Source: a virus
Length of the DNA: 54,670 nt
Direction: 5' to 3' (one strand)
Virus record (IMG/VR): IMGVR_UViG_3300046538_000300
Location: 1-54,670 of that record
Below the pieces are notes generated by a model, which was not told where the DNA came from, ran no database searches, and saw only the letters and a list, made by a program, of their open reading frames with translations. This document shows positions 4,351 to 37,442 of the stretch, piece after piece. A program made the position numbers and the translations under genes. The number at the start of each line of letters is the position of its first letter. Positions within the stretch are counted from its first letter, which is position 1.

Positions 4351-7300
4351 TCACCCCAAGTTGCCAAGCTGAACACGCAAGGTTCCGTTCTGGTCGTATA
4401 CCTTGACGCCGCTTCCGGTTATCACGATCCGCCCAGCCCCTGGCGTAGCGCCATTCATCTCGAAGTACCCCGTTTTCGATATGGCCCATCCCGTTTGCCC
4501 TTGAACCCAGTTGTTCGACTGGATTACCTCGCCAATCTTTGCATTGGTGATTGATCCATCCTGAATGAACGCATCGCTGATAAAGGTCTGCCCGTTGACC
4601 ACCGCAAACGGGGCAGTCAGAACATTGCCCGCTACGGTGTTGAGCACGGCAAACCGGTCGGCACTGACGACAAATGAGGACTGCAACGCGCCGGAACTGT
4701 TATCGAGCCCCAGGCCAAACCCAGCGGCGTAGTACTGACCGCCAGACGAGAGGGCCAGTCGGACGCTGTACGAAGCTGCAATCTGGTGAGCAGAATCCGC
4801 AATCGTCGTCGCCTGTTGCTGGAGTTGAGCGGTATTGCCGCCGACCGTGCTCTGCAGGCTGGTGATCTGCTGGGACTGCGACGTCTGCGTTGCGCCCTGC
4901 GTGGTGACAGTCGATGTCAGCGATTGCAGTGCCCGGCTTGATGCGGCAGGGCCCACGCGACCGACAACGATCCAGTCGATGTCGAACGAACCGCCTACAG
5001 TCGATCCAAGGTCGATTCGCAGGCTGGTGATAGTGTTGCTCAGCCAATCTGTTCCGCCGTTTGTGAGCGCGCTCATGTCCCACTCAACAACGGCGCTCGA
5101 CCCTACCGCTAGGTTTGGGTTGGCAGCCACTTTGCGATAACTGCCAGAAAATCCATGGCCAGACGTCACATAAAACAGCTGACCATCCCAATCTCCAACT
5201 GCACCAGCTCGCCGCGTGATCTTGGCTCGGATGATCGGATAGAGTGCGCCCTGAACCGAGATTGCCGAACGGGTGAGCTGAGGGTCTGCAGTGGTAGCAG
5301 TAACCGTTACATACCCAGCATTTGTTGTGATCGAGGCATTAGCTGCCGCCCATCCGTCTACAGTGCTGTCGAAGTTCCACGTCGCGTTCTCTGCCGGATC
5401 AAGGCCAGAGGCCCCAAGCGCGCCTTGGATCGTGCCCACTGAGGTTTGCAGATCGGTGATGCTTGACGCCTGAGCCGTGTTAACGCCTTCGGCGCTTGTT
5501 ACCCGGTTCGTCAACGTCTGCAATGCAGCCGCACTGGCCTTGGTTGCGAGTCCATCAGCGGTGCTGTTTACGGCGTTCTCAAGCGTCGTGGTGCGTGCAG
5601 CGACGCTAGTCAAGGTCGTGCCCAGCTGGGTCACGCTGGATGTAAGAGAATCGACAGCGGCAGAGGTTGCAGCAGTTTGCGTTGCGGTGGCCTGAACCGA
5701 TGCCGAATAAGCCGTGAGGGTTGAACCCTCTTGCAGTTGTACGTTGTCTAACTCCACCCACATGTCAGCAGTAGCGCCGGATCGATTGATGCAGCGAGCC
5801 GGGAAAACTTGCGCACGTACAGCACCTGCCGGCGCTGTAGCCGTAAAGCTTAACCGAGTAAAAGCGGTTCCTACTGCGGTCTCTGCCAACTGCGATGTTG
5901 AAATTACAGTGCCGGCATCATTGATCCATTGCACATACATCGCAAATCTTGCAGACGCGCTGGACAGGCGAGCATAAACGCTCATCGTATAGCTCTGCCC
6001 CGCAGTGACTTTTGGGCGATCTCCGTCAGCGATCTGGAACGTAAGCCCCATGTAGCCACCGTTCGCAAGTGTAGCCACAGCGCAGCGCACCGCCTTGGCG
6101 CTCAATGCTAACGGCGAGTCAACCTGCGTGACTACGTTTGTTCCTGCGGTGCTTGCATCGGAGCGCCACCAAGCTGGACGGGTGCCGTCTGCCGTCAGCT
6201 GATCAAACGAACTGTTCGGCAAGAGGTTGTCGCCACCCATGCTGCCGACACTGTTATTCAACTGGGTGAGCTGACCGCTAACGCTCGTCAAACCGGTTTC
6301 AGTCTGGGTTACGCGCGCGGTCAGCGCTGTGGTTGCCGCTGCCTGAGTACTGATATCAGCTGCCGATACCTGTCCGTTATCTTTCCATCCGGTAGCAACG
6401 GTAGAGATTTCAGCCTGAGCTCTATCCACTTCAACAAAACCTGCCGTCTGCGCACTGGCGCGCACTCGGAAATAGAGCTGTGCTTTTGTCGTTGCGGCTG
6501 GAAGCGCAGTCGAGGTCAGCGTCACTCTCTGCCACGAGCCAGTAAGAACCACTAGGTTTCCGGTAACAGTCGCGATGCCTGTATTCCCGGAGTTCCGGGC
6601 CTGAATCAGCAGAACCACGGCGAGCCCGGCAGTCCCTCTCACGTAAGCCGAATAGGTCATCACCTGACCTTCAGATACTGAGACCGCTTTTGTGGCGATC
6701 GGCGTTAAGTCGGTGTAGAGCGTGGCAGGACTGTTCGACAAGCCAGATATGTCGATTCGCTGGGCGAGACCAGCCGGGTCAAGCGCCGAAGCGACCAAGC
6801 TAGGCGTAGCGGTAACCCCTGCAGTGGAACTGATCAGCCAGCCATCCGCGGTGGTGGCTGGCGAGGTGACCCGATCAAAAGACGGGTTAAAGATCAGGTT
6901 CTCGCCGCCCACGCTCGACAGATTCGAGGTGATGTTGGTGATCGCATTCCCGGCCGCCGTCAGGTCAGTCCCCTGCTGAGTAACCGTGTTGCTCAGCGCC
7001 TGGACAGTTGCAGCCTCGGCTTTGGTCGCCACCTGCGCCAAAGCGCTTGCAGCCGCCGCAGCCGCATCCGACGCCGCCTTGTCTGTAACTGCCGCCCACG
7101 CGCTCCCTGTCCAGCGTTTCGGGGTATTCGCGTTGCCAGTGATGTCGATCCACAGGTTCTGCGCCAACTGATCGGCAGCGGCCGGCGCCGCCGACTGAAC
7201 GATGACCTTGCCCTTCCCGCCTGCCAGCGTGTTCGCCGCGTTCGCAGCGTTCTGTGCTGCCGTGACGTTCTGGTTTGTGGTTGTCAGGCTGCTGTTCAGA

Positions 7301-10404: not shown

Positions 10405-11001
10405 TCAGGTTTTGTCTTCGGCGTAGATCGAGGCGCTGATGATTGCCCCGCCCCAGCGCCGGCGGCCGATGCAGATAGGGACAGGGTTTCCGCTTGCAGT
10501 TGTGTTTCTGGCGCTGCCAAAGGCGTAACTGGGCATGTTTTCAGGTGCGGCGCTTTGTTTCAGGCCGGAGGCCTGTGGGCTGAGCATTTGGATGACGCCG
10601 CCGAGGACCAACGATGCGCCAAGCGACTGCCCCCAGCCCTGCATGCCTGGTACAAAGAAAGATGCCACAAAGATCACGGCGCCGATGATCGTCTGCAGGA
10701 TACCTGCTCGCTTACTGCCGGAGACTACGGGGACGATCCTGACCTCCCTTGTGCCCCCAAGATCAAAGCCGTCAGCTCTTTCATTCTTACGATTGCGGAA
10801 GATCGCAAAACGCATGCCGAGCCGGTCTAGCTTTTTGATCTCGTCGTCGAAGCCTTCCAAGGTTGCCTTCAGAGCCTTGAATACTTCCCAAACCTGACCC
10901 GAATCTATCTGTCGTCTGTGCGTCCGGCCAAACCGCTTTGCGAGAGAGCCAGACAACAGGATAGTCGTCAGGGGACTGTAACTTGCCGCACTCGCTGACA
11001 T
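10405..11001 (-). CDS. I: Tail assembly protein I
   Basis: This 198-residue protein matches lambda gpI in size, order and pattern: a polar N-terminal domain containing GSLAKRFGRTHRR, then a hydrophobic glycine-rich segment (about residues 100-145, containing IIGAVIFVASFFVPG), then a C-terminal part with PVPICIGRRRWGG. gpI acts with K, L and J in building the tail tip. It is separated from K by 1.7 kb of cargo, although K-I-J are contiguous in lambda. A GAGGGC ribosome site and a bidirectional terminator lie just upstream. Confidence 0.85.
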   Translation of the reverse strand: MSASAASYSPLTTILLSGSLAKRFGRTHRRQIDSGQVWEVFKALKATLEGFDDEIKKLDRLGMRFAIFRNRKNERADGFDLGGTREVRIVPVVSGSKRAGILQTIIGAVIFVASFFVPGMQGWGQSLGASLVLGGVIQMLSPQASGLKQSAAPENMPSYAFGSARNTTASGNPVPICIGRRRWGGAIISASIYAEDKT

Positions 11002-11015
11002 TTCTTGCCCTCAAT

Positions 11016-11044
11016 AAAAAGCCACCCGAAGGTGGCCCGTTTTT
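11016..11044. terminator. Bidirectional terminator closing the K-I cargo
   Basis: GCCACC and GGTGGC form a 6-bp stem around CGAA; on the minus strand the loop is the very stable TTCG. A5 on the left gives a T-tract for minus transcripts, and T5 at 11040-11044 gives one for plus transcripts. It lies 3 bases after the lipoprotein gene and just before gene I. Confidence 0.8.
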
Positions 11045-11046
11045 GG

Positions 11047-11391
11047 TCAGAGGCAGTCTTTCACAGCCGCCTCGATAGCTGATCGTCCGACGCCAGGCAT
11101 CCAAGCTAAACGTTGGTAGAACGTCACCTGGCTGCCAGAAGCGGTTTTCTTCACTTCCAGCAGCTCGTCCGTCAGTTGCATCGCGCCGATGACTAAACGA
11201 TATCCATCGGCGGTCTCGGACATTACGGCCTCAGATCGGGCATCCTGCCATCGTGGAAACACGCAGGTTGCATACTGCTTGGGAGTCTTCTTCGTGGTTG
11301 CGCTGGTTGTCGGTGTATTGCTTTTCAAATCACTTGGCGAAACACACCCAGCCAGCAGGGCAACAGCCAGCGCCCCGATAAAAATTCGCAT
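11047..11391 (-). CDS. Lipoprotein in the tail operon (cargo)
   Basis: A 114-residue lipoprotein: MRIFIGALAVALLAGCVSPS is a short signal peptide with lipobox LAGC, followed by a Ser/Thr-rich linker and a small soluble domain with two further cysteines (QYATCVFPRW and the terminal KDCL). It lies between the HEPN-like gene and gene I and ends at a bidirectional terminator. Small phage lipoproteins can alter the lysogen surface or block superinfecting phage; that role is inferred from location only. Confidence 0.75.
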   Translation of the reverse strand: MRIFIGALAVALLAGCVSPSDLKSNTPTTSATTKKTPKQYATCVFPRWQDARSEAVMSETADGYRLVIGAMQLTDELLEVKKTASGSQVTFYQRLAWMPGVGRSAIEAAVKDCL

Positions 11392-11454
11392 GATGATCCC
11401 TCAATGAGAAAGGGCCGAGGGTAGCACTGCTTATCCCAGCAACAAAACGCGCTG

Positions 11455-11847
11455 TTATCGTTCAGCGTTTGCCTCGGTAGAGGCTCCGATTCTATTCAAG
11501 TCTGCAATTAGTCGCGTGGCTTCCAGAAGGCTGAGCGCCGCCTCCCCGGGTAAAACTTGTTCGCTCAGCTGATAATCTGCCATTGCTCTCAACCTTTTAC
11601 GGTCTCTCAATCGGCGGGCGATCTTTCGAAGCCCTGGACCTAACCCCTCATATCTTGAGATCAAGCGCTCATGCACGCCAACATCTGTTCGCTTGGATTC
11701 GGGCAGCCGCAGACGCTGTGCAGTCTGGCTTGCAGAGTGATAAACACTGTAGTAGCCACGACTAATAGAGGACCGAAAATCAATTTCGTCTTGAGATTCG
11801 CACAGCCTCTTGCTCTGGGAAAGAAAGTCTTCACACGACACCGACAA
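11455..11847 (-). CDS. HEPN-like protein, cargo between K and I
   Basis: The 130-residue helical protein has the pattern of the HEPN/UPF0332 superfamily: SISRGYYSVYHSASQ in the first helices and RKRLRAMADYQLSE in the last, matching the family's R..ADY motif. Many HEPN proteins are RNases or toxins, but the canonical R-X4-6-H pair is not evident here. I chose TTG at 11847, 9 bases after GGAGG; GTG at 11841 is an alternative. Either start lies inside the upstream helical-repeat gene, so the two are coupled. The pair plus a lipoprotein interrupts the tail operon, suggesting a defence or toxin-antitoxin module. Confidence 0.75.
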   Translation of the reverse strand: MSVSCEDFLSQSKRLCESQDEIDFRSSISRGYYSVYHSASQTAQRLRLPESKRTDVGVHERLISRYEGLGPGLRKIARRLRDRKRLRAMADYQLSEQVLPGEAALSLLEATRLIADLNRIGASTEANAER

Positions 11848-12622
11848 GGTAGCCTTCCTCCGATATCTGAGTGTCAGATGGTGACCATGGAGTAACCAAG
11901 ATAGACAGCTCGTTATCAATCTCTTCGTCAAATCGCTCGATTAGCATATCCAAAACCATCTCGTTTAGATCGGCGAGTTTACTAGTACCAGCGTTGACCA
12001 AAAAACGGTAGAGAATCCCCTCAGTTTCGCTCGCGAAGAGCTTATAGGAGATTATTGGATGGTTGATATGAGATCGGATCAATGTACATGCTGCATCCAA
12101 TCTTCGGGTTATCTCGAAATCACTTATACCAAGTCGTCCGATAACTTTTTTTGCTTCAAGCGCCTCGCGCTGGAAGTCACTGTCCAAAGATTCTTCGGCC
12201 ATAAAATCCCCCAGCATCCCTACTTGAGCTTGATGAGCGCGTAATAGTGGAATGGTTTGAGGCAATACGCTGGAGCTAATATTCTCCACTAGCAGCCGGG
12301 CATCAATGATGCGCCCGTTTAGCAACGCAAGGTACGCGGTAGTGAAACTCACGGCGAATTTATCCATGCCAAGACCTCTTGAACTCTCCATGTACGAAAC
12401 AGCCTCAGTATAGCGTCCCTGAGTTCCAACTAAACATGCTAGCTCATGATAAACAGCAGCCTGCTGGGCCTGACTCAATGTTGGAGATTTCAACATCTTC
12501 CGGAAACGCCTCTTCAGACGCTCAATGGAGACTTCATCCAACGCGCAGGTTTGTGAAAGCCTATTTTTTATAGCCTGTCGCTGTGCGAACAGATCCGCTA
12601 TCTCTGATTTAGGCTGCTGCAT
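11831..12622 (-). CDS. TPR-like helical-repeat partner of the HEPN protein
   Basis: This 263-residue, all-helical protein shows TPR-like repeats in about residues 50-125 (for example AAVYHELACLVGTQGRYTEA and AYLALLNGRIIDARLLVENI). The C-terminal third is acidic. I do not recognise a named family. The 3' end overlaps the HEPN-like gene by up to 17 bases, so the two are expressed together. Base composition is visibly more AT-rich than K upstream. Possible roles are antitoxin, sensor or scaffold for the HEPN partner. The ribosome site at 12622 is weak, and an AT-rich segment just upstream (ATGATAAATT on minus) could hold its own promoter. Confidence 0.7.
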   Translation of the reverse strand: MQQPKSEIADLFAQRQAIKNRLSQTCALDEVSIERLKRRFRKMLKSPTLSQAQQAAVYHELACLVGTQGRYTEAVSYMESSRGLGMDKFAVSFTTAYLALLNGRIIDARLLVENISSSVLPQTIPLLRAHQAQVGMLGDFMAEESLDSDFQREALEAKKVIGRLGISDFEITRRLDAACTLIRSHINHPIISYKLFASETEGILYRFLVNAGTSKLADLNEMVLDMLIERFDEEIDNELSILVTPWSPSDTQISEEGYLVGVV

Positions 12623-12708
12623 CCCGGCTGTCCCGATCCCATTTCGCAGAAATTTATCATGAGGAGGTAAGGGATTGCACTAACGGATGGCCCTCAGACG
12701 CGCCGCCA

Positions 12709-13464
12709 TTATTTCGCGTCTTTGTGCCTGAGGATCAGGCGTGTTCTGTCATGCCAGGGGCCACCGAAAACGATGATCTCTGACGGTTTACCGTACATGT
12801 GGTGAAGCAAGAATGGCCCAGCGCCGTGAACTGCCGATGACTCGCCGGGCAGCGCCGGAGCGGCGCCGAGATAGATCCCCGCGTGGTTAGGATGTTTGGT
12901 GCGCCCCACTTCCATCACGATCATGTCGCCGCGCTGCGGTGTGCCAACACGCTGAAACCCGGCGGCCTCGTAGGCCTGCTCGTACAGGCTTGGGCCATCG
13001 GCCTGCTCCCACCAACCGTCCTCGCGCTTGAAGACCTCAAACTCCAGCCCCCATTCACGCTTGTACCAGTCTGCGCAGACCTGCCAGCAATCCCAGGCGC
13101 CGTGCACGAACGGTCGACCGAGCAGCGGCGTGTTGCCGGTAGGGACGATGGTGCGCAGATCGCCTTCAGGCCAGCTCAGGATGTGCCACGGCAGCTCAGT
13201 CGCCTCGCACATCGCGAGGTCGCGCGGCGAAGGTCGGCTGGTCGCGTCCGGATGCGAGTGAATTATGCCGATGACTTCGCCCTTGTCTTCAGCCGCTGCA
13301 TATTCCTCCGGCGCGATCCTGAACTCTTCGTTCGGCTCGCTCGCGGTGTTTGCGCAAGGGATGTACTGCTGCTTGCGACCAACGCTGATCAGCAGCCCGC
13401 AGCATTCGCGCGGATACTCGGCGGCAGCGTGCGTCTGCACGGCCTTGAAGATGTGTTTCAGCAT
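12709..13464 (-). CDS. K: Tail assembly protein K (JAMM + NlpC/P60)
   Basis: The 251-residue protein has two domains as in lambda gpK. The N-terminal JAMM/MPN metalloprotease-like domain shows GIIHSHPDATSRPSPRD, the JAMM metal ligands. The C-terminal NlpC/P60-like peptidase domain shows the nucleophile region GAWDCWQVCADWY and the histidine in NHAGIYLG. It assists tail-tip assembly and may cut peptidoglycan at entry. It follows L by two bases. In lambda gene I would follow, but here a cargo block intervenes. Confidence 0.9.
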   Translation of the reverse strand: MLKHIFKAVQTHAAAEYPRECCGLLISVGRKQQYIPCANTASEPNEEFRIAPEEYAAAEDKGEVIGIIHSHPDATSRPSPRDLAMCEATELPWHILSWPEGDLRTIVPTGNTPLLGRPFVHGAWDCWQVCADWYKREWGLEFEVFKREDGWWEQADGPSLYEQAYEAAGFQRVGTPQRGDMIVMEVGRTKHPNHAGIYLGAAPALPGESSAVHGAGPFLLHHMYGKPSEIIVFGGPWHDRTRLILRHKDAK

Positions 13465-35639: not shown

Positions 35640-36512
35640 ATGACGAAAAAGAAAGAGCTGTCCCCCGAACTAAAAGCTGAATGCGACGCCGCCAAGGCGC
35701 TTTTCGTATCGAAGAAGAACGCACTTGGCCTGACCCAAGCGAGCCTTGCTGAAGCAGCAGACATCTCAGCGGCGGCGGTTGCCATGTACCTGAATGGTAC
35801 GAATCCGCTGAACGCGAAATTCGCGTCGGTGCTCTCGCGTGTGCTTAGCGTGCCAGTGGAGAAATTCAGCAAGCGTCTTGCGAAGGAGATCAGTGGCCTG
35901 ACGGCAGCTGCAGATCAGCCTACTGACGTCGCCGGGAACACGTCGGCGGCCGATCTGGTACGACAGATGTTGACCAAGCAAGGAAAAGGTCTTTCAGAAG
36001 ATGCTCGCCGACGCCTGCTCGCGGCTGCTGCGTCGGACGACGGCGGCGGAGTGATTGAGGTCGATTACTATCGGCCAGGCGCCGTTGGTGACGAGGTGTG
36101 GATCGCGCACTACGACGTTCGTGCGGCGATGGGTGGCGGGCAAATCCCGCACGATTATCCGGAAATGCTCCAGGACGTGCGCGTCAGCCCTCAGCACCTC
36201 CGCGAAATGGGCGTCGAGTTCAAGGAACACTTTCACCTGAAGATGGTGACTGGATGGGGCCAGTCAATGGCGCCCACGATCAAGCACCGCGACCCGCTGC
36301 TCGTCGATATCAGTGTTCGAGAATTCGCCGGTGACGGGATCTACATGTTTTCGTGGGAAGGTCACCTCTACATCAAGCGGCTCCAATGGATCGGAGAGGA
36401 GCAGTTCTCGATGATTTCAGACAACACCCGGCATCCTCCCCAAACCATCCGGGCGGACGAAACCTACATTCAGGCTCGTGTACTGCTGGTCTGGAATGCG
36501 CAGCTTTTGTAA
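35640..36512 (+). CDS. cI: CI repressor (XRE + S24 peptidase)
   Basis: The 290-residue repressor has an N-terminal XRE helix-turn-helix (LTQASLAEAADISAAAVAMY, about residues 31-50) and a C-terminal LexA/S24 domain with serine 209 in GWGQSMAPTI and lysine 246 in LYIKRLQW, correctly spaced. It maintains lysogeny by binding the 15-bp operators at 35567-35630 and 38744-38782. The segment expected to hold the Ala-Gly self-cleavage bond reads DVRAAMGGG, suggesting Met164-Gly165, an unusual dipeptide. The start codon abuts the operator region with no good ribosome site. Confidence 0.92.
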   Translation: MTKKKELSPELKAECDAAKALFVSKKNALGLTQASLAEAADISAAAVAMYLNGTNPLNAKFASVLSRVLSVPVEKFSKRLAKEISGLTAAADQPTDVAGNTSAADLVRQMLTKQGKGLSEDARRRLLAAAASDDGGGVIEVDYYRPGAVGDEVWIAHYDVRAAMGGGQIPHDYPEMLQDVRVSPQHLREMGVEFKEHFHLKMVTGWGQSMAPTIKHRDPLLVDISVREFAGDGIYMFSWEGHLYIKRLQWIGEEQFSMISDNTRHPPQTIRADETYIQARVLLVWNAQLL

Positions 36513-36579: not shown

Positions 36580-36960
36580 CTATTGCCCTGGCTCAACAGC
36601 GGGGCTTGAGCCTTTTACGATTTTGTTTGCCGCAGCCACCATAAGGGACTGAACTATGGCTGGAGAACTAATCCCTATTTGAAAAGCAAGCATCGAACTA
36701 ATTTTGTCACCATTTATCAAATACACTAGCGTTACAAACAATCCAAGCAGGGGCAGTGCCAACGCCAAAAATAAAAAAAATCCTATATATCGCCACCAGA
36801 CAAGCTTATCCGAAGGACTGCGAGAAAAGTGCTCCACCAACTTAAATCCAAATAAGATGAAACCGCCAATGAACGAGATCAGCGCAAGGCTACTATTCGT
36901 CTTGACAGTTGAAGCTAGAGCTTGAAAATCAAATACCGATGCAATGACCCCATAATCCAT
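36580..36960 (-). CDS. Membrane protein of a two-gene module beside cI
   Basis: A 126-residue protein with three likely membrane helices: LALISFIGGFILFGFKLVEH, WWRYIGFFLFLALALPLLG, which runs on through a third LFVTLVYLI segment, and a weakly hydrophobic C-terminal stretch. It is AT-rich. The ATG overlaps the stop of the upstream wHTH-like gene by one base (TAATG). A soluble regulator plus small membrane effector downstream of cI recalls the lambda rexA/rexB position, but here on the opposite strand. Candidate superinfection-exclusion or abortive-infection module; the family is unrecognised. Confidence 0.72.
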   Translation of the reverse strand: MDYGVIASVFDFQALASTVKTNSSLALISFIGGFILFGFKLVEHFSRSPSDKLVWWRYIGFFLFLALALPLLGLFVTLVYLINGDKISSMLAFQIGISSPAIVQSLMVAAANKIVKGSSPAVEPGQ

Positions 36961-37442
36961 TAACGAGTTTCCCCTTTGCGGACGGTCTTTATAGACCTCG
37001 ACGCGTCATCATCATTATCATCTGATGAGGGCTCTCCACTTGCCGATAGCTCTGTGAGGTCGCTCATCCCTGCTCTTCGAGTGGCAAAAAAGTCTACAAA
37101 CCGATCTTTAAAAGATGAACCCTCTCTAAATCTTTCTTTTGTGGTTATCAGAACGACGCCTTCCTTGCTCTTGTATGGATATATTTTAATAGCATCCATG
37201 AGTGCCGGATTGGATTTGATGGCATCTACAACTACAGAGACCGGCAAATCAGTTTCCTTGGACAGCCCATAAACCGTTCTAGCTTTGTATCGTAAGTTGT
37301 TTAGTGCAAAAAATATTCTTTTTCCTACTTCAGAGTCATTTGGAGACATGGCTAAACCTGCTACCCGATCTCTTTTTTTTGGCCTCAGTTCAGAGCTGCT
37401 CATATGCGATACCATCATAAAATCTATTAGAAAAGTATCCAT
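36960..37442 (-). CDS. wHTH-like soluble partner of the membrane protein
   Basis: The 160-residue frame has a middle domain resembling a winged helix (RYKARTVYGLSKETDLPVSV...VVLITTKERFREG) and an acidic Ser/Asp-rich C-terminus (GEPSSDDNDDDASRS). Several starts are possible: ATG at 37442, 37418 and 37403; none has a strong ribosome site. The upstream palindrome GGATA-N6-TATCC is a candidate autoregulatory operator. Composition is AT-rich compared with cI. Function unknown; paired expression with the membrane gene is clear from their overlap. Confidence 0.68.
   Translation of the reverse strand: MDTFLIDFMMVSHMSSSELRPKKRDRVAGLAMSPNDSEVGKRIFFALNNLRYKARTVYGLSKETDLPVSVVVDAIKSNPALMDAIKIYPYKSKEGVVLITTKERFREGSSFKDRFVDFFATRRAGMSDLTELSASGEPSSDDNDDDASRSIKTVRKGETR

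Follow-up and report, generated by a model that had tools for sequence, protein, structure and literature searches.

HEPN domains serve as the toxic component of toxin-antitoxin and abortive-infection systems (PMC3710099), and several described groups come close to the locus reported here. HEPN-T proteins of the AF0298 type (PF05168/UPF0332; PDB 2hsb) keep the arginine of the canonical Rx4-6H motif and carry an aspartate for its histidine, and another conserved histidine has been suggested as an alternative active site (Anantharaman et al., PMC3710099). HepT-MntA or HEPN-MNT systems (type VII) place a small HEPN protein beside a dedicated partner, MNT nucleotidyltransferase, and are defined by a toxin that is neutralised when nucleotides are transferred to the HEPN protein. 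LA2681 HEPN proteins occur in operon with, or fused to, TPR proteins and are listed with Rx4-6H conserved (PMC3710099), so that HEPN-TPR pairing as such is already known. Among temperate phages, Tha (tail-activated HEPN) is a prophage-encoded HEPN defence of Staphylococcus aureus that consists of a single 301-aa protein with R-x4-H and is regulated by an antisense inhibitor gene (PMC11087260), and Tab of Pseudomonas prophage JBD26 is a late-operon moron with its own promoter, an 83-aa protein that is encoded between the terminase genes and targets the tape measure protein (PMC10884400).

Here we describe a TPR-HEPN gene pair between the tail genes K and I of a Pseudomonas phage that integrase-like and repressor-like ORFs, identified by eye, mark as temperate. 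The window, by which we mean the whole stretch of DNA analysed, is a virus record of 54.7 kb whose minus strand bears a lambda-like tail cluster. About 1.7 kb lie between the K stop and the I start and hold genes for a TPR-like protein, a HEPN protein and a lipoprotein, on the same strand as K and I throughout (Table 1). An earlier sequence-only reading of this DNA had described the block as an interruption of the conserved tail gene order, which is borne out; the bidirectional terminator and coupled, overlapping starts that it reported are likewise present. We place the HEPN start at a TTG (11847) because the ATG or GTG starts of relatives fall at the same aligned position, and from there the gene encodes 130 aa and shares 17 nt with the 3' end of the partner gene, giving the two adjacent genes the layout of a toxin-antitoxin pair. 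We propose, with a probability of roughly 0.6, that the pair is a prophage-carried two-component module of toxin-antitoxin-like or abortive-infection type in which a TPR protein controls a HEPN toxin, a function inferred from protein family, gene layout and genomic context.

Table 1. Features of the K-I region of the window and the evidence behind each.
Feature	Position	Strand	Evidence or remark
Tail gene K (JAB + NlpC/P60)	12709-13464	-	PHROG minor tail protein 3.8e-118; upstream flank of cargo slot
TPR-like partner gene, 263 aa	11831-12622	-	AlphaFold, PDB fold matches, 12-sequence alignment
HEPN gene, 130 aa, AF0298-like, TTG start	11455-11847	-	phrog_5176, AlphaFold, Foldseek, PDB profile
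Lipoprotein gene (phrog_914), resident neighbour	11047-11391	-	phrog_914 1.1e-33; in many K-I loci without the pair
Tail gene I	10405-11001	-	phrog_32 8e-62; downstream flank of cargo slot
Bidirectional intrinsic terminator, lipoprotein/I interval	11019-11038	.	GCCACC-TTCG-GGTGGC; both strands have T runs
Promoter-like extended -10 TGATAAATT, upstream of partner gene	12651-12659	-	Sequence comparison; weak
Promoter-like extended -10 TGCTACCCT of lipoprotein	11418-11426	-	Recurs across K-I junctions
Swap block, approximate	11338-12764	.	Sliding identity against L007; dS comparison

By predicted fold and by profile, the 130-aa protein is a member of the HEPN superfamily. It matches phrog_5176 (3e-23), and an AlphaFold model built with 12 relatives reached a pLDDT of 91.9. 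Foldseek ranked AF0298 (2hsb) first for this model (probability 1.0, best E only 1e-3), with further HEPN structures and HepT in the next places, and the HEPN profile matched PDB entries 9xbd (5.2e-8) and 2hsb (0.011). The sequence-only reading, which had called the protein HEPN-like and staked that on profile searches, is thus upheld. General models recognise it poorly: the Pfam HEPN model (PF05168) gave no match for the window protein and matched 2 of the 12 relatives (best E 0.003), and PADLOC matched no system model to the pair, reaching only HEPN_IX at 0.0089 for the HEPN protein and nothing for the partner. The two closest PDB sequences differ from each other at the tyrosine of the R..xDY motif, DY in 9xbd and DF in 9xbc, which suggests that someone mutated this residue; a matching paper was not found in the open-licence literature.

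Conservation was assessed over 32 HEPN domains scoring above 40 bits, phage and plasmid loci included. Conservation reaches 84% or more at eleven positions, most of them polar or charged (E21, R25, R30, Y32, Y33, H37, H59, R87, A90, D91 and Y92 in window numbering; Y92 at 97%), a pattern that would point to an active site. The canonical Rx4-6H motif, expected where helix 3 ends, is absent, the aligned site being D in 27 domains and E in four, with one gap; HEPN catalysis is therefore not assured. R87 is nevertheless kept, D91 takes the place of the histidine and H59 (together with H37) is conserved upstream, and in this arrangement of R..ADY and two histidines the sequence resembles the AF0298-type HEPN-T proteins.

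As the sequence-only reading had supposed, the partner is predicted to be a TPR-type solenoid and not a nucleotidyltransferase. Its AlphaFold model (pLDDT 85.3) combines an alpha-solenoid over residues ~7-185, with helices to 185, and a C-terminal beta-beta-alpha-beta domain at 192-245. The PDB fold matches are TPR proteins, with a best E of only 0.012, and two siphophage proteins match the partner over its full length (TM 0.69-0.72 by query and 0.73-0.74 by target, E ~1e-5). Family searches gave no nucleotidyltransferase match above cut-off, and the TPR-type fold with its beta-beta-alpha-beta tail rules out a partner of the MNT kind.

Set beside the described systems, the HEPN protein shares with the AF0298 type its fold, the retained arginine with D for H, and a conserved histidine N-terminal to the motif; it differs in escaping the Pfam HEPN model and in having a TPR partner instead of an MNT nucleotidyltransferase. 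HepT-MntA is alike in pairing a small HEPN protein with a dedicated partner, and HepT is among the top fold matches, but the present pair has a TPR-type partner without a nucleotidyltransferase match and lacks the canonical R-x4-H. Coupling to a TPR protein is what it has in common with the LA2681 family, from which D or E in place of the conserved histidine sets it apart by description. Tha is likewise a HEPN protein encoded in a temperate phage, yet it differs in layout and host, and Tab, also a moron that sits in a late operon of a temperate Pseudomonas phage under a promoter of its own, is an unrelated protein. No model in Pfam, NCBIfam or PADLOC recognises the TPR-HEPN pair, and we found no description of it, anti-phage contexts included, in the open-licence literature; the earlier suggestion that the module might be an undescribed one is therefore consistent with the libraries searched.

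The two genes recur together well beyond this phage. In 398 Pseudomonadaceae genomes the partner profile matched three and the HEPN profile seven; the four HEPN matches lacking a partner match each have an upstream protein of 263-269 aa, and these belong to the same family as the partner (hhalign probability 96%, E 4.7e-9, C-terminal domain included). HEPN matches at E up to 1e-4 were found in 29 of 398 Pseudomonadota genomes. A partner-like ORF of ~194-302 aa lies directly upstream at 30 of the 32 HEPN domains, 21 of them matching the partner profile, and in all 30 the genes abut or overlap in the same order; the exceptions are one locus without a convincing partner (L086) and one without an upstream ORF of at least 150 aa in the available stretch (L093). 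The class-wide search with the partner profile returned, outside G001, only weak repeat-region matches, and the HEPN profile did better. One chromosome carries the pair in tandem duplicate (L113 6526-8952), and at another locus the HEPN gene is split across frames beside an intact TPR partner (L072 ~6664-7133).

The settings of these pairs are typical of accessory genes. Besides the K-I junction, the pair adjoins the tape-measure gene in Stutzerimonas phage PG1, lies upstream of the tape-measure region at two further loci (L046, L047) and follows a cI-like gene, as judged by eye, at a third (L048). P. aeruginosa phage YMC11/02/R656 has it close to the genome end, and a P. pseudonitroreducens genome has it near an integrase-like gene. 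It also occurs in Klebsiella and Vibrio phages, on a small mobilizable Acinetobacter plasmid and in chromosomes, where several pairs sit among housekeeping-type genes and not in obvious defence islands. In the complete genomes of E. coli, nothing close to the Klebsiella pair was found.

Purifying selection acts on both genes (dN/dS 0.06-0.25 wherever dS is unsaturated), and they recur together elsewhere, so that chance does not account for the pair. The AT-richer composition noted from the sequence is evident: the pair has a GC content of 48.6%, K one of 62% and the window one of 58%. The pair ranks in the lowest 1.7% of segments of its size and lies below its surroundings in GC at all 12 other loci measured. 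Comparison with the related locus L007 indicates that the pair is mobile and moves as a unit: its proteins are 97-98% identical and its dS is 0.05-0.09, against 1.0 for the adjacent K. A sliding comparison delimits a swap block 93-100% identical to L007, with one limit close to the K stop and the other within the lipoprotein signal peptide, whereas K is 77-88% and the lipoprotein body and I are 33-75% identical. With L008, K dS is 0.79 and dS for the pair is saturated.

The K-I block is composite, made up of a resident lipoprotein and TPR-HEPN cargo. Of the mobile functional unit that the sequence-only reading had drawn around all three genes, the TPR-HEPN pair stands and the lipoprotein falls away: it occurs in K-I junctions free of the pair, it carries a promoter-like element of its own and L007 has a different lipoprotein body in its place beside an almost identical pair, which rules it out as a part of the same unit. 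A lipoprotein query against viral contigs returned 32 loci, and in 31 of these the phrog_914 lipoprotein, or a protein sharing its signal peptide, precedes I; at the remaining one (L020) neither K nor I is visible. Across the 31 IMG/VR loci with K, lipoprotein and I in view, L007 and L008 counted in, the K-lipoprotein gap runs from 35 bp (L014) to 5,283 bp (L033), with near-empty sites of 35-37 bp at five loci (L014, L022, L023, L028, L038). This gap is a cargo slot for unrelated genes, the TPR-HEPN pair being one such cargo; others encode an HSP20 protein, a Rha regulator, a Bro-N protein, an HsdR N-terminal-type protein and DUF2513, and phage Medea1 carries a helix-turn-helix/Arc/Rha set. 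Few K-I cargoes are named by Pfam and PADLOC. The HSP20, Bro-N, Rha and HsdR N-terminal-type cargoes were seen in the K-I gaps of L027, L031, L033 and L040 and upstream of the L003 lipoprotein, and phiAH14a has a repressor/Cro-like set.

Comparison of junctions also brings out candidate signals. The extended -10 element of the partner gene has a counterpart, TGCTAAATT, at the equivalent place in L008, and that of the lipoprotein recurs with variants just upstream of the gene across K-I junctions. A sigma-70 consensus scan returned two sites against a chance expectation of 1.4, and neither of them coincides with a proposed promoter; the promoter calls therefore rest on these comparative elements. 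Between lipoprotein and I, a GC-rich hairpin with a T run is present in 22 of 22 junctions compared, with differing stem sequences. An extra unit between conserved genes, empty sites in relatives, terminators throughout and extended -10 elements, the last as sequence matches, together give the K-I junction a moron architecture. The lipoprotein is itself a moron resident in this phage lineage, served by a promoter-like element and a terminator of its own. The promoter-like element and signal peptide are joined to differing lipoprotein bodies in L007, L008, L039, L040, L041 and the window (11338-11426), and L008 has three such lipoproteins around K-I-J; the 5' end of the gene looks as if it served as a recombination anchor.

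We envisage that in the lysogen the pair would be made from its own weak promoter, and that the TPR protein would bind a HEPN dimer and keep it inactive. Upon infection by a rival phage, the HEPN protein could be freed either because the TPR groove captures a phage product or because the TPR protein is lost; it might then cut or bind RNA, so that translation stops and the infection is aborted. Through coupled translation the amounts of partner and toxin would stay matched, which would shield the phage during its own lytic growth. This proposal draws on the HEPN fold and profile, the partner fold, the homology of distant pairs, the pairing at 30 of 32 domains, the accessory placements, horizontal movement and the temperate nature of the phage, with precedents in Tha, in HEPN toxins at large and in Tab; it is weakened by the missing Rx4-6H motif, by the PADLOC result and by the chromosomal pairs in housekeeping-type surroundings. 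A bolder version, in which the pair is a widespread, undescribed anti-phage system whose TPR sensor gates a HEPN RNase with a non-canonical active site of R..ADY and an upstream histidine, different phages having versions tuned to the structural proteins of their rivals, is possible though on balance doubtful; such tuning would account for the pair lying repeatedly next to tail genes.

The same layout would also suit a plain addiction-type toxin-antitoxin unit that stabilises prophage or plasmid without specific phage defence, the TPR protein being the antitoxin and HEPN the toxin. The overlapping genes with the putative antitoxin first, the small mobilizable plasmid, the low GC and mobility, and the L072 locus with its split HEPN gene and intact partner all speak for it. 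For a simple antitoxin, however, a 263-aa TPR protein is large, and it has the look of a sensor or scaffold; the recurrence of the pair in accessory slots of phages is at least as compatible with defence, and we consider this reading unlikely. The D or E that replaces the motif histidine in all 31 domains aligned at the site raises another alternative, that the HEPN protein is non-catalytic and, with its TPR partner, binds RNA or protein to regulate genes of the host or prophage, a role already proposed for MtlR; certain HEPN families are regarded as non-catalytic (PMC3710099). Against this stand the strong conservation of eleven positions, suggestive of an active site, and the alternative histidine site proposed for the AF0298-type group (PMC3710099), and we judge it quite unlikely.

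That these are tail assembly or virion genes particular to this phage group is highly improbable and already contradicted. Their position among tail genes on the same strand, often beside a tape-measure gene, would fit, but the pair is absent from most close relatives with K and J about 80-95% identical, near-empty sites included, and it occurs outside tails beside a cI-like gene and an integrase, on plasmids and in chromosomes. The empty sites and non-tail locations rule out a tail role, and the pair is neither universal in the lineage nor tied to tails, the opposite of the outcome on which the sequence-only reading had said its proposal would founder.

If the TPR-HEPN module is defensive, it represents a two-gene HEPN system spread over phages, plasmids and chromosomes of Pseudomonadota and missed by Pfam, NCBIfam and PADLOC models. 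The pair offers a direct way to test RNase activity in HEPN proteins without the canonical histidine, and the K-I junction is a place to look for more prophage accessory genes. I and J are separated by a second variable slot, which reaches about 1.1 kb (L007, L016, L028, L026, L032, L041). In L007, L016 and L028 it holds related minus-strand proteins of 214-222 aa (GP.PELL.EIGQVMVNYSECERSIHDIF); the one scanned, from L016, had no Pfam or PADLOC match. Elsewhere in the window, the region of lowest GC (about 43%, 36580-37442) comprises two minus-strand ORFs beside the probable repressor (35640-36512) and is possibly another accessory unit.
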